From positions 1-42,635 of the forward strand of contig JAPLSM010000432.1 of the NCBI GenBank assembly GCA_026398635.1: a stretch of 42,635 bases of DNA, read 5' to 3'. Made by a program: the position numbers and the translations under genes. The notes beneath the pieces were generated by a model that did no database searches, was not told the DNA's origin, and saw only the letters and a list, made by a program, of their open reading frames with translations. The stretch comes from Spirochaetota bacterium. GTDB lineage: Bacteria > Spirochaetota > Spirochaetia > SZUA-6 > Fen-1364. Below are positions 10,847 to 20,463 of this stretch, piece after piece (the first letter of the stretch is position 1; each line of letters opens with the position of its first letter).

Positions 10847-11296
10847 ATGCGCGTCCGCACCCGACCGTACGGCGAGGTCGACCTCGACGAGCGCCAGCGC
10901 ATCAGCCTGCCGTGGGGCCTCCTGGGCTTCGAGGACCTGCGGGACTGGGCGATCCTCGACGCGGCCCAGCCGCCGTTCTACTGGCTCCAGTCCCTCGAGC
11001 GGCCCGAGGTCGCCTTCGTGCTGGTCGACCCGTTCTCGTTCCGGCCCGACTACGACCCGGGCGCCGACCCCGCGGAGCTCGCCGTGCTGGAGCTCGCCGG
11101 CGCGGAGGAACGGCTGGTGTTCGCCATCGTCACCGTGCCCGCCGAAAGGGGGCGCATGAGCGCGAACCTCCAGGGTCCGCTCCTCATCAACCGGCGCACC
11201 CGCGTGGGGCGCCAGGTGGTGAGCAACGATCCCCGCTGGGGGGTGCGGCACGTGATCGCCGACGAGCTGGCCGCGCACCGAGCCTCGACATGCTGA
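10847..11296 (+). CDS. fliW: Flagellar assembly factor FliW
   Basis: A 149-residue FliW protein, recognised from [15 protein letters not shown] near the N terminus, [20 protein letters not shown] in the middle, and the closing [19 protein letters not shown]. FliW binds both flagellin and CsrA. When flagellin is exported, free FliW captures CsrA and relieves repression of flagellin translation. Here it starts four bases after the flgL stop and its last 7 bp overlap the csrA start, the standard fliW-csrA pairing. Its flagellin partners lie about 7-9 kb away in the same window. Confidence 0.95.
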
Positions 11297-11541
11297 TCCT
11301 CGCGCGCCGCATCGGCGAGTCGATCGTCATCGGTGACCAGGTCGAGGTGTCCGTGGTGGACATCAAGGGCGACCAGGTCAAGCTGGGCATCAATGCGCCG
11401 CGCGCCGTTCCCGTCTTCCGGCTCGAGATCTACCGGGCCATCCAGGAGGAGAACCGGCGCGCCGCGGCCGCGGCGCCCGACGCCCTGCCCCGGCTCGAGG
11501 GACTCGGGGCCGACCCTACGCGGAATCCGCCAGCTCGCTGA
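11290..11541 (+). CDS. csrA: Carbon storage regulator / translational repressor CsrA
   Basis: An 83-residue CsrA. The canonical part is [17 protein letters not shown], then [17 protein letters not shown] and [14 protein letters not shown], which includes the strand and RNA-contacting arginines. A longer tail of about 25 residues follows ([19 protein letters not shown] onward). CsrA is a homodimer that binds GGA in hairpin loops near ribosome-binding sites. The ATG at 11290 lies inside the end of fliW, so translation is coupled. The last 26 bp overlap the 3' end of the convergent HD-GYP gene. Likely targets in this window are the flagellin and flaG leaders. Confidence 0.95.
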
Positions 11542-15750: not shown

Positions 15751-17772
15751 TCAGTTGCCGTTGTTGGAGGTGCTGTTGGTGAAGTTTTTAAGGGTCTGGG
15801 AGTTTTTATCCATCTCGTTGAGCGCGCTCTCCATCAGGCCGTACTTGCGCTTCAGCTCGGCCTCCTTGGCCGTGAGACGCTTCTCGTAGTCGCTGATCTC
15901 GCGTGCGCTGCGCGCGATCTGCGTGTCGGTGCCCGTGACCCGGTTCGGGAGGATGCCGCCGGTCTGCACGAAGGGCCTGAGCAGCGCGTCGAGGGAGTAC
16001 GCCACCCCGGTGTTCACCACGAGGTCGCCGTCGGTGTCGTTGCCGAACAGCTCCCGGATCGCGTCGGGCATCGAGGCGATGGCATTCTCGAGCTTCGCTT
16101 CGTCGGCCTCGAGGTAGCCGCGCAGGCGCGTCTTGTCGACCCCCGAGCCCGGACGCCGCAGGTCCGTCGCGATGCCGATCTGGGCGAGCAGCGCGAGGTC
16201 GCGTGAACGGCTGGTGGGGTAGGCGTTCATCATGATCTGCTGCATCGAGGCCTTGAGGTTCGTCAGCATGGTCTCGCCCGTAAGTAGCCCGAGCCGTTCG
16301 GTCGCCTTCTTCTTCTCTTCGTCGGTGAGGTAGCCGGCCTCGGCGATGACCGCCGCGTCCTTGCGGGTGAGCACGTCCACGTCGGTGATGATGCGGTTGT
16401 AGGCGCCCACCAGCGAGAGGACGGTGTCCTTGATGGCCTTCGCGTCGCGGTGCACTGTGAGATCCACGGGGTCCTTCGAGGGGGCTTTCAGCGTCAGGGT
16501 GACGCCGGGCACGACGTCGTCGATCACGTTCGACGGGCGGGTCACCTCGATGCCGTCGAGCGACAGCACCGCGTCGGCCGCCTCGGAGACCGCGTTCACG
16601 GGCACGTAATCGCCCCGCTGCGTGACATCCACGAGGGCCACGTCGGTGATCGAGATGCGCCGGTGCGTGTTGCGGTTGCGCAGGTCGAGGCTGTCGATCG
16701 AGCCGGCGAGCTTTCCCACCTCGATGGTGATCTTCTGGAACTCTCCCGAGTCCGCGAGCCCGGGCAGGGCCACGAGCTTCCCCCCGCTCTCCAGGAAGAG
16801 CACCTGGGGATCGCTCACCTTCTCGGGCTTCTTCGGCGCCTCCCACTCGGGGAGGGGAGCCTCCGACCGCCCGCTCTCGATGCGCACGCCGCCGAACTCG
16901 ATCGACCCGGTCTCGGGCACCCGGGGACCCGTGGGCGGGGCCGCGGCGGCCTCCTCGCTCAGGAGTTCGACCTTCACCGACAGCTCGAGGACCATCCGCT
17001 CGTCGAGGGCGACGGACGGCTGCACGGGAACCTTCAGCTCGGCGCCCGGCTCGAGGGTGAGCACGCCGTCCGTGAGCTTGTACTGGGACGGGTCGAGGGT
17101 CTTCGACCAGGCGGCCACCCCGCGCTCGGTGAGGGTGATCTCGCGCGAGGCGGCGAGCCGGCGCTCGAGCATGCCCGTCTTCACGCCGAGGTCCGCGGCA
17201 GCGCCCGAGAGCACGAGACGGTTCTCGGCGCCTGTCTTCTTGGATTCTATGAGGAGGACCTGGGTCTCCTTCGTGTCGTTTACGACCGAGGCGCGGAGGT
17301 GCTCGCCGCCCTTGCGGGTGAGGGCTTCGGCGAAGTCCTTGAGGCTGCCGCCGCTGTAGGCGAGCTTGATCTCCTTCCCGCCGACGCTGAACACGTAGTT
17401 GCCGGCGTCGACGGCGAAGTCGCGCCCGAGCGAACGGGACAGGAACCGGTCAGCGGTGGCGACTCTTCTCACGGCCACCGCGAGCGTCTCGTCGATCGCC
17501 TGCCGGGTCGCGGTGGCGGTAATAGCCTTCGCATCGGAGGAGTCGACGATCCGGTCGTTGAAGGGGTTCTCGAACCCGTAGAGACCGCGCGTCCCCTCGC
17601 GGAGGGTGGTGAGGGAGCGGTTGAAATCCTGCCAGGCGGTCTTCCGTTTGGCGAGGAGGTCGGCGTCCGCCTGCATGCGCTTTAGCGGCTGACGTTCGAC
17701 CTCCATTAACGCGTCGATGATCTTCTTGGTATCGACTTTGCTCGTCACGCCCGGGATCGTGATATCAGACAT
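15751..17772 (-). CDS. fliD: Flagellar filament cap protein FliD (HAP2)
   Basis: A 673-residue cap protein. The N-terminal FliD domain starts ITIPGVTSKVDTKKIIDALM and continues through VERQPLKRMQADADLLAKRK and TAWQDFNRSLTTLREGTRGL. The conserved C-terminal half contains KDTVLSLVGAYNRIITDVDV and ends in a coiled coil (RSAREISDYEKRLTAKEAEL) and an Asn/Ser tail. FliD sits at the growing filament tip and folds exported flagellin. Residues about 270-340 form a Pro/Glu-rich insertion. The ATG at 17772-17770 follows flaG by 37 bp. Its leader has only a weak GGTGA ribosome site and no CANGGANG motif. Confidence 0.93.
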   Translation of the reverse strand: MSDITIPGVTSKVDTKKIIDALMEVERQPLKRMQADADLLAKRKTAWQDFNRSLTTLREGTRGLYGFENPFNDRIVDSSDAKAITATATRQAIDETLAVAVRRVATADRFLSRSLGRDFAVDAGNYVFSVGGKEIKLAYSGGSLKDFAEALTRKGGEHLRASVVNDTKETQVLLIESKKTGAENRLVLSGAAADLGVKTGMLERRLAASREITLTERGVAAWSKTLDPSQYKLTDGVLTLEPGAELKVPVQPSVALDERMVLELSVKVELLSEEAAAAPPTGPRVPETGSIEFGGVRIESGRSEAPLPEWEAPKKPEKVSDPQVLFLESGGKLVALPGLADSGEFQKITIEVGKLAGSIDSLDLRNRNTHRRISITDVALVDVTQRGDYVPVNAVSEAADAVLSLDGIEVTRPSNVIDDVVPGVTLTLKAPSKDPVDLTVHRDAKAIKDTVLSLVGAYNRIITDVDVLTRKDAAVIAEAGYLTDEEKKKATERLGLLTGETMLTNLKASMQQIMMNAYPTSRSRDLALLAQIGIATDLRRPGSGVDKTRLRGYLEADEAKLENAIASMPDAIRELFGNDTDGDLVVNTGVAYSLDALLRPFVQTGGILPNRVTGTDTQIARSAREISDYEKRLTAKEAELKRKYGLMESALNEMDKNSQTLKNFTNSTSNNGN

Positions 17773-17809: not shown

Positions 17810-18151
17810 TCAGATCTTTTCGTCAACCAGGAAGCCGATCATCTGCCTGATCTTTGCGGTCATGCGCTGGATTTCCTCGGCGGGGATCTCCTTGATGACC
17901 TTATCGGTTTTCCCGTCAACGACCTTGATGATGATCTGGTTGATCTCCTCGTTGACGGAGAGCCTGATCCGGTGGTTGAACGCCTGGAACGTGTCCTCCA
18001 GCGCCCGCGCCTGCCGCTCGACCTCCTGCCGGGTGAGCTCCTGCTCGGCCTGCACCCGGGGCTCCCGTCGTTCGGCGAGGTGTCCCGCTTCCTTCTGCAG
18101 CATCTCGGGCACCCCGGCGGATTTCAGGATACCCGGAATTTCCATACCCAT
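17810..18151 (-). CDS. flaG: FlaG family flagellar protein
   Basis: A 113-residue protein ending in the FlaG signature: FNHRIRLSVNEEINQIIIKV, then VDGKTDKVIKEIPAEEIQRM and a short hydrophobic tail. FlaG proteins affect filament length and often sit next to fliD, as here. The ATG at 18151-18149 was chosen because GGAGG lies seven bases upstream and MGMEIPGI begins a sensible protein. That ribosome site forms the loop of a small hairpin (18156-18169) with CsrA-target geometry. No intrinsic terminator or clear promoter was seen between this gene and the second flagellin, only several strong stem-loops. Confidence 0.85.
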   Translation of the reverse strand: MGMEIPGILKSAGVPEMLQKEAGHLAERREPRVQAEQELTRQEVERQARALEDTFQAFNHRIRLSVNEEINQIIIKVVDGKTDKVIKEIPAEEIQRMTAKIRQMIGFLVDEKI

Positions 18152-18155
18152 AGTC

Positions 18156-18169
18156 GTGCCTCCGTGCAC
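18156..18169 (-). promoter_or_regulatory. CsrA-type hairpin holding the flaG Shine-Dalgarno
   Basis: On the mRNA this is GUGC-ACGGAG-GCAC: a 4-bp stem with a six-base loop of the form ANGGAN, matching the CsrA core CANGGANG (CACGGAGG). The GGAGG is also the ribosome-binding site of flaG, whose ATG is four bases downstream of the hairpin. A bound CsrA would block initiation. The motif and stem are visible in the sequence; binding is inference, supported by csrA and fliW in the same window. Confidence 0.6.
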
Positions 18170-18282: not shown

Positions 18283-18361
18283 TTCCACGTGCTTGGGGCG
18301 CTTCGCACCTCTCACACGTGGAAGAGATGGGCGGGGGGGCGCGACCCCCCGTGATCCCATC
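18283..18361. other. Two strong inverted repeats between the second flagellin and flaG
   Basis: TTCCACGTG (18283-18291) is mirrored by CACGTGGAA (18315-18323). Next to it, GATGGG (18326-18331) pairs with CCCATC (18356-18361) around a run of G paired with a run of C. Neither is followed by a T tract, so they are not standard terminators. They could still limit read-through from the flagellin genes into flaG-fliD or stabilise mRNA ends. Confidence 0.45.
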
Positions 18362-18427
18362 AAAGTCGGAAAAGGTGACGTCCAGCACCCTCTCCCGTCG
18401 GGAACGGTACGTCCCGCTATTCCTCCG

Positions 18428-19285
18428 TCAGGCGAGCAGCTGCAGCACCGACCTGGGTTTCAGGTTGGCCTGCGCCAGCATCGCCGTGCTGGACTGTAGC
18501 AGGATCGAATCTTTCGTGTACTCCACCATTTGCGCCGCGATATCGGCGTCGCGGATCAGCGACTCGGCGGCCTGCATGTTCTCCGAGGCCACGGCGACCC
18601 CCTTGGCGGCCATCTCGAAGCGGTTCTGATACGCCCCGAGGTCGGCCCGCTGCCGGGAGACCCGGCGCAGGGCGTCGTCGACAATGCCGATGGTGCGGTT
18701 GGCCGGGTCGGGCGCCGAGACGGAGACCGTGTTGGCGGCTCCCGCCTGCAGCCCGAGACCGTGCGCCGTCATCGTGCCGATGTAGACGCGCTCGCGCTGG
18801 TCCATGTTGGCGCCCACCTGGAAGTACAGCTGGCGCACCTCCGTGCCGCCGTTTGCGGAACTCGCGAAGGCCCCCGTCAGCACGTTCATTCCATTGAACT
18901 GTGCGTGCGAGGCGATCCGGTTGACCTCGTCGACGAGCTGGGACACCTCCACCTGGATCTGCATGCGATCCTCGTCAGTGTAGATGCCGTTCGACGACTG
19001 TACGGCCAGCTCCCGGATGCGGTGCATGATGTCCTGCGATTCCGAGAGGTAGCCCTCGGCCACCTGGATGAACGAGATCCCGTTCTCGATGTTGCGGCCG
19101 GCCTGGTTCAGGCCGCGAATCTGGGAACGCAGCTTCTCCGAAACCGCCAGCCCGGAGGCGTCGTCGCCCCCGCGGTTGATGCGCTGGCCGGAGGACAGCT
19201 TCTCGATGTCCTTGTTGAGGTCCCATTCCTTGAACTTCACCAACCGATTCGCGTACAAGGCGCTCATGTTGTGGTTGATGATCAT
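18428..19285 (-). CDS. Flagellin, spirochaetal FlaB family (second copy)
   Basis: A 285-residue flagellin. The N terminus is [18 protein letters not shown], followed by [34 protein letters not shown] and [14 protein letters not shown]. The C terminus contains [20 protein letters not shown] and [19 protein letters not shown]. It has only D0 and D1, about the length of spirochaetal periplasmic filament cores. It is clearly related to, but distinct from, the flaB copy upstream (for example RGGDD instead of RAGDD, and a different D1 tip). The ATG at 19285 has AAGGAGGG upstream. No sigma28 promoter was found in its own 268-bp leader, so read-through from flaB is possible. Confidence 0.95.
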
Positions 19286-19291
19286 CGTGAC

Positions 19292-19329
19292 CCTCCTTGC
19301 TCCGTGTGTGCTCGAGGCATCCCTGCCTC
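19292..19329 (-). promoter_or_regulatory. Two CsrA-type motifs in the leader of the second flagellin
   Basis: The upstream motif (19314-19329) is GAGGC-AGGGAU-GCCUC on the mRNA: a perfect 5-bp stem with an ANGGAN hexaloop, 29 nt before the ATG. The downstream motif, CAAGGAGG (19292-19299), is CANGGANG and contains the ribosome-binding site. A further ACACGGAG lies between them. Two sites, one on the Shine-Dalgarno, is the arrangement known for CsrA on the Bacillus subtilis hag leader. Binding here is inference. Confidence 0.6.
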
Positions 19330-19553: not shown

Positions 19554-20414
19554 CTACTGGAACAACGTCAGCACGGTCTGCGTCTTCGTGTTGGCCTGGG
19601 CCAGCATGGCCGTGGCCGACTGCACCAGGATGGCGTTCTTGGTGTACTCGACCATCTCGCTCGCCATGTCCGCGTCGCGGATGCGGCTCTCGGCGGCCTG
19701 CAGGTTCTCCGCGCCGATGTCGAGGCCCTTCACCGCGTGCTCGAGCCGGTTCTGGTACGCGCCGAGGTCGGCCCGCTGCTTGCTGACCGCCTTCAGGCCC
19801 GCGTCGACGATCCCGATGGTGCGGTTGGCGCTGTCCGGGGTCGAGATCGACACGATCTGCTTGCTGCCGACGTTGCGCAGCCCGAGGCTGTCGGAGGTCA
19901 TCGTGCCGATGTAGACCCGCTCGCGCTGGTCCATGTTGGCGCCGCTGTGCAGCCACATCGAGTCGGTCACCACGTTCTCGGCGCCGAGGCGCGCGAAGCG
20001 GCCCGTCAGCATGTTCATGCCGTTGAACTGGGCGTGGGACGCGATGCGATCCACCTCGTCGACGAGCTGCGACACCTCGACCTGGATCTGCATCCGGTCC
20101 TCGTCGGTGTAGATGCCGTTGGACGCCTGCACCGACAGCTCGCGCAGCCGCTGCATGATGTCCTGGGTCTCCTGCAGGTACCCCTCGGTGGTCTGGATGA
20201 ACGAGATGCCATTCGACGCGTTGTCGCTCGCCTGGCGCAGACCGCGGATCTGGCTCCTCATCTTCTCGCTCACCGCGAGACCTGAGGCGTCGTCGCCGGC
20301 CCTGACGATGCGGCTGCCGGACGAGAGCTTCTCCATGTTCTTGTCCAGCGCCCAGTTGTTCACCTTGAGCTGGCGGTTGGCGAAGAGCGCACTCAGGTTG
20401 TGATTGATGATCAT
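19554..20414 (-). CDS. flaB: Flagellin FlaB (periplasmic flagellar filament core)
   Basis: A 286-residue flagellin, closest to spirochaetal Fla[77 protein letters not shown], and near the end [20 protein letters not shown] followed by [15 protein letters not shown]. In spirochaetes FlaB proteins form the filament core inside the periplasm. The ATG at 20414 has GGGAGG upstream, so the start is clear. It is preceded by a near-consensus sigma28 promoter and a leader of about 190 nt carrying two CsrA-type motifs. Export is by the flagellar system, so no signal peptide is expected. Confidence 0.96.
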
Positions 20415-20419
20415 GAGAT

Positions 20420-20463
20420 CCTCCCTGAACACGCTGCGGGGCCGCCCCGGGCATCCATGCCCG
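20420..20463 (-). promoter_or_regulatory. Two CsrA-type motifs in the flaB leader
   Basis: The upstream motif (20448-20463) is CGGGC-AUGGAU-GCCCG on the mRNA: a perfect 5-bp stem with an ANGGAN hexaloop, about 34 nt before the ATG. The second, CAGGGAGG (20420-20427), fits CANGGANG and contains the ribosome-binding site. The stem bases differ from those of the second flagellin while the loop rule and position are kept. CsrA repression of flaB is known in Borrelia; its action at these sites is inference. Confidence 0.65.

Follow-up and report, generated by a model that had tools for sequence, protein, structure and literature searches.

Genes and RNA elements around flaG

The window (the whole 42,635-nt stretch of spirochaete DNA that was analysed) carries two flagellin genes, flaG and fliD in that order on the minus strand, and fliW and csrA together on the opposite strand at 10847-11541. 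The features discussed here are collected in Table 1. The encoded CsrA has an intact RNA-binding core: Pfam PF02599 extends across positions 1-53, and alignment to solved CsrA chains covers both the initial MLILARR and R44. Residues L4, R6/R7 and R44 are RNA contacts in CsrA, and the nearest solved relatives are Bacillus-type CsrA proteins that are partnered by FliW.

Two features of a CsrA-FliW-flagellin circuit are found at this locus: csrA adjoins fliW, and CsrA-type sites lie in the flagellin leaders. The second is seen across the clade, where an upstream ANGGAN hexaloop on a stem of at least 4 bp precedes 91 of 167 flagellin genes (vs. 1 of 235 other genes) and is accompanied by a GGA at the Shine-Dalgarno (SD) sequence. 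csrA was found in 115 of 148 related genomes and fliW likewise in 115 of 148, and these are the same genomes among the matches listed.

Table 1. Features of the flagellar locus and of the fliW-csrA pair (window coordinates)
Feature	Position	Strand	Description and evidence
fliW	10847..11296	+	overlaps start of csrA
csrA (83 aa)	11290..11541	+	nearest solved relatives 1t3o, 5dmb
fliD	15751..17772	-	37 nt downstream of flaG stop; without CsrA-type hairpin at its start
flaG (113 aa)	17810..18151	-	Pfam PF03646, E 7.6e-22
Weak second ANGGAN hexaloop, flaG codons 1-5	18136..18149	-	GGGU-AUGGAA-AUUC; loop from +6 (A of ATG), ~20 nt downstream of the first
SD hairpin of flaG	18156..18169	-	stem GUGC/GCAC, hexaloop ACGGAG with Shine-Dalgarno GGAG; proposed CsrA-binding site (sequence, conservation, covariation, background)
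Terminator-like hairpin	18332..18351	-	CGGGGGG-UCGCGC-CCCCCCG; U run usual in relatives, absent here
Covarying hairpin R1, flaB 3'UTR / flaB-flaG junction	18361..18403	-	loop CUGGACGU at 18385-18378; covariance model 34.5 bits, E 9.5e-5
Flagellin flaB, directly upstream of flaG	18428..19285	-	Pfam PF00669/PF00700
CsrA-type hairpin (canonical), leader of this flaB	19314..19329	-	GAGGC-AGGGAU-GCCUC
Second flagellin flaB	19554..20414	-	Pfam
CsrA-type hairpin (canonical), leader of second flaB	20448..20463	-	CGGGC-AUGGAU-GCCCG

The Shine-Dalgarno hairpin of flaG

The flaG leader ends in ...GAGUGCACGGAGGCACGACUAUGGGUAUGGAAAUUCC on the minus strand, where positions 18169-18149 read GTGC ACGGAG GCAC GACT ATG. 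A 4-bp stem presents the hexaloop ACGGAG (18165-18160), and the 4-nt spacer GACT leads from the stem to the ATG (18151-18149). The GGA of the loop overlaps a Shine-Dalgarno sequence at normal spacing (GGAGG, 7 nt, ATG). The original prediction had put the whole GGAGG in an ANGGAN loop four nucleotides before the ATG, at 18151-18169: the hexaloop, the stem and the spacing are as it described, but the 3′ arm begins with the last G of GGAGG, so that this G lies outside the loop, and the range, while containing the hairpin (18156-18169), runs on through the spacer to the A of the ATG.

In its form the hairpin is an exact match to the high-affinity type of CsrA site. According to a structural study, that type has an ANGGAX hexaloop with a stem immediately beneath it (PMC4005645), and the window's ANGGAN loop sits directly on its stem in the same way (GUGC-ACGGAG-GCAC). 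The consensus from SELEX in E. coli is RUACARGGAUGU (quoted in PMC8668096), and many relatives of the window genome come near its UAC-ARGGAU-GU with UUAC-ANGGAG-GUAA. Unlike the SELEX site, the flaG loop ends in G, as the SD sequence requires, rather than in U. Together with the covariation described below and with csrA and fliW encoded in the window, this match strongly supports the earlier identification of a CsrA-type hairpin at the flaG SD.

The hairpin alone has a predicted energy of about -3.7 kcal/mol. The stem is short (4 bp) and competing folds exist: its pair probability in context ranges from 0.56 to 0.98 with the amount of flanking RNA folded, and it is absent from the minimum free energy (MFE) structure of one 71-nt fold and seen in the 328-nt MFE structure and in both centroids. 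The weak hexaloop in the first codons of flaG, a possible second CsrA contact of the kind that would let a single dimer bridge two sites, is not kept as a hairpin in most relatives. A second canonical hexaloop occurs in 7 of 30 hairpin-bearing flaG leaders, a count that includes the window, whose own second hexaloop is the weak one only; the flaG leader has one strong canonical site and flagellin leaders have two GGA sites. Four loci of one family (L020, L037, L065 and L067, family f33) carry a second ANGGAN hexaloop of 4-6 bp inside the coding region, at about +31 in flaG, in which wobble pairs and base substitutions distinguish the genomes.

Conservation and covariation of the hairpin

flaG is present in 98 of the 148 relatives, and 89 loci were read. 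Starts were picked by SD strength and the SD GGA was examined blind to pairing. In 31 of the 71 flaG leaders with an SD GGA, this GGA sits in a hexaloop on a stem of 4 bp or more, vs. 3 of 154 control genes that likewise have a GGA in the SD, drawn from about 380 kb of control regions in the same genomes (odds ratio ~39; Fisher p 3e-15, or 1e-9 when families are counted). When right arms were swapped between families, 4.5 +/- 2.0 hairpins were expected, with a maximum of 12 in 5000 draws. Among further flaG leaders taken from named records, none of them counted before, 33 of 46 have the hexaloop stem. The first loop position is A in 30 of the 31 long-stem sites, vs. 44% (68/154) of background SD GGAs. 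Within 21 flagellar loci, SD hexaloops with stems of 4 bp or more are confined to flagellin genes and flaG; four genes with such stems that automatic labelling had classed as other are flaG by sequence. The comparison with leaders of related spirochaetes that the original prediction had named as one of its checks, with lack of conservation in relatives as part of what would count against it, came out in its favour.

The distribution is patchy: the hairpin occurs in 12 of the 25 families that have an SD GGA, and none was found in one well-supported clade of 33 genomes, several of which have no GGA in the SD. Its correlation with csrA is uninformative because nearly all flaG-bearing genomes have csrA. 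CsrA-type hexaloops are also seen in other placements. In two genomes without the SD hairpin (L047 in G068, L054 in G048), GAUGUC-ACGGAU-GAUGUC lies upstream of the SD and close to flaG, followed in L054 by a U run; in two loci of family f28 (L055, L071), GGGUA-A(A/G)GGAG-UACCC lies just upstream of the SD, about -18 from flaG, which would be another position for a site of CsrA type.

The stem is clearly maintained in evolution by compensatory change. Across 47 distinct ANGGAN flaG sites, chosen without regard to the stem, all four pairs change on both sides, and the covariation score is 0.513 vs. 0.186 +/- 0.033 after shuffling, with far lower values in slid registers. The variants include GUGC/GCAC (the window), GUAC/GUAC, CUUAC/GUAAG, CUUUC/GAAAG, CUAAC/GUUAG and UUGAC/GUUAA. 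The family that includes the window retains GU(A/G)C-ACGGAG-G(U/C)AC, with a full exchange of an A-U for a G-C pair, in an intergenic region that has otherwise diverged almost throughout. On a tree built from FlaG and flagellin C-termini, stem pairs 2-4 account for at least 11 pair-state changes among hairpin-bearing leaders.

The flaB-flaG junction

The RNA between flaB and flaG holds a further conserved structure, R1. Its loop motif and pairing stem were seen in 82 of the 89 flaG loci, and 10 of its 11 pairs covary (score 0.589 vs. 0.238 +/- 0.017). An R1 covariance model has a single hit in the window genome and finds exactly one copy each, upstream of flaG, in 88 of the 148 relatives (98 of which bear flaG). 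A search across the phylum returned Spirochaetia, one marginal hit in another class, and one genome with two copies. In family f29, two genomes (G048, G068) were missed by the model and at first counted as lacking R1; this was rejected, as both hold the variant loop CCGGAUGU. The window gave no Rfam match at the gathering score and nothing relevant at E up to 5, so that R1 is unmatched there, and a limited literature search found no paper on it. R1 is apparently an undescribed structured RNA of Spirochaetia.

The R1 loop, (A/U)C-Y-GGA-Y-GU with an invariant GGA, comes close to the Csr/Rsm consensus but is one base shorter, and this similarity makes CsrA a candidate ligand. The R1 stem, by contrast, is long and purine-biased, which is not a known requirement of CsrA. 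Between the flaB stop and R1, CCGUUC(C) is kept in most loci (about 18400-18410 on the minus strand of the window) and is missing in some families. It could form a pseudoknot in which CGUUC pairs with GGACG of the R1 loop.

A terminator-like hairpin follows R1. In relatives it often has CGCG in its loop and a U run, and it lies 20-35 nt before the flaG start (L005, L006, L020, L053 and other relatives). Given that a terminator-like hairpin with a U run precedes flaG in relatives, transcription most likely reaches flaG by reading through from flaB.

CsrA and FliW as probable regulators of flaG

CsrA represses flagellin synthesis in several bacteria: its targets are hag in B. subtilis and flaB in Borrelia burgdorferi and Leptospira, and flaB1/flaB2 have been proposed in Treponema denticola (PMC9481697, PMC8668096). 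The spirochaete flaG locus shares with these systems a (predicted) CsrA-type site at the SD and a csrA gene beside fliW; it differs in that the target is flaG rather than flagellin and in having one strong site rather than two. The closest precedent is flaG of Campylobacter jejuni, which is already a known CsrA target. There the flaG leader is bound by CsrA, with an enrichment of > 346-fold in co-IP, although its affinity (Kd > 350 nM) is lower than that of flaA (~50 nM). A fliW mutant has about 3-fold less FlaG, and about tenfold less when a flaA-leader mutation is added; deletion of csrA restores FlaG in the mutant and by itself leaves FlaG unchanged (PMC4894983). In both organisms the flaG mRNA has GGA motifs near the SD, with CsrA binding and FliW antagonism of it, read out as FlaG levels, demonstrated in C. 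jejuni (PMC4894983). The spirochaete case belongs to a different phylum, involves a single SD hexaloop supported by covariation, and places flaG behind flaB and a terminator-like hairpin. The original prediction knew of no described CsrA control of flaG in spirochaetes; a search of the open-licence literature likewise found none, although such control has been described outside the spirochaetes, in C. jejuni (PMC4894983).

Given its sequence and structure, the flaG hairpin is very likely a CsrA site. Judging by the parallel cases of C. jejuni flaG, B. subtilis hag and flaB of spirochaetes, it is likely that CsrA binds there and blocks FlaG translation and that FliW relieves the block. A CsrA dimer on the hairpin would cover the SD and so prevent translation. 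As long as flagellin had not yet been exported, CsrA would occupy the flaG SD; on export, FliW would be freed from flagellin and remove CsrA, and FlaG would be made in step with flagellin. Since deletion of csrA alone left FlaG unchanged in C. jejuni, the effect in spirochaetes may be conditional.

Three other explanations were weighed. In the first, CsrA does bind, and its main effect falls on the whole flaB-flaG transcript (on how stable it is, on transcription past the terminator-like hairpin, or by way of flagellin mRNA titrating CsrA) rather than on flaG initiation. The usual position of flaG 20-35 nt behind a terminator-like hairpin in relatives, with probable read-through from flaB, speaks for this, as does the titration of CsrA by flaA mRNA in C. 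jejuni (PMC4894983); however, the site coincides with the SD, where a block of initiation is classically exerted, and we regard the explanation as unlikely. The second dispenses with CsrA and takes the hairpin as a simple structure acting in cis to tune FlaG translation or to gate it by temperature. The hairpin is exactly at the SD, and hairpins with MFEs of about -0.2 to -5.2 kcal/mol, as found for the 18-nt sites, could modulate initiation. The SD bases are in the loop, however, so that the hairpin without a bound protein would leave most of the SD exposed; the loop is fixed in its length (6), its initial A and its GGA though other SD contexts are possible, and the same loop form recurs in the clade's flagellin leaders, all of which makes this a distinctly improbable account. 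Chance pairing around an ordinary GGAGG in the window genome only, for which one might cite the 4-bp stem, its absence from some relatives and from one local MFE fold, is scarcely credible and is contradicted by the background comparison (the odds ratio), the arm swaps, the compensatory switch within the window's family and the covariation across families. CsrA binding at the SD, with a block of flaG initiation, is the reading retained here.

Repression had also been expected to spread from flaG to fliD by coupling or polarity, and this part of the original prediction found no support. The two genes are separated by 37 nt in the window and by a median of about 32 nt (32.5) in relatives, with no overlap of stop and start, so that translational coupling is not supported; fliD has no CsrA-type hairpin at its start. 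Polarity onto fliD is possible, with nothing that supports it.

More tentatively, the junction as a whole might act as a composite RNA control element. R1, then the terminator-like hairpin and lastly, in about half of the lineages, the CsrA hexaloop at the flaG SD would jointly govern how much flagellin is made relative to FlaG (and perhaps FliD), and flagellin mRNA might through them serve as a CsrA sponge.

Implications

FlaG is a filament-associated protein of the periplasmic flagella of spirochaetes, and the control of FlaG relative to flagellin therefore bears on the assembly of spirochaete filaments. The sequence comparisons suggest that FlaG is probably under the same CsrA/FliW control as flagellin in many spirochaetes. 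On evolutionary evidence, a second filament gene would join flagellin under CsrA/FliW control in spirochaetes, and the comparisons give the exact bases at which the control of flaG can be tested. The larger novelty may be the R1 hairpin beside flaG: lying behind flaB, it offers a lead on the regulation of flagellin mRNA in a whole bacterial class.
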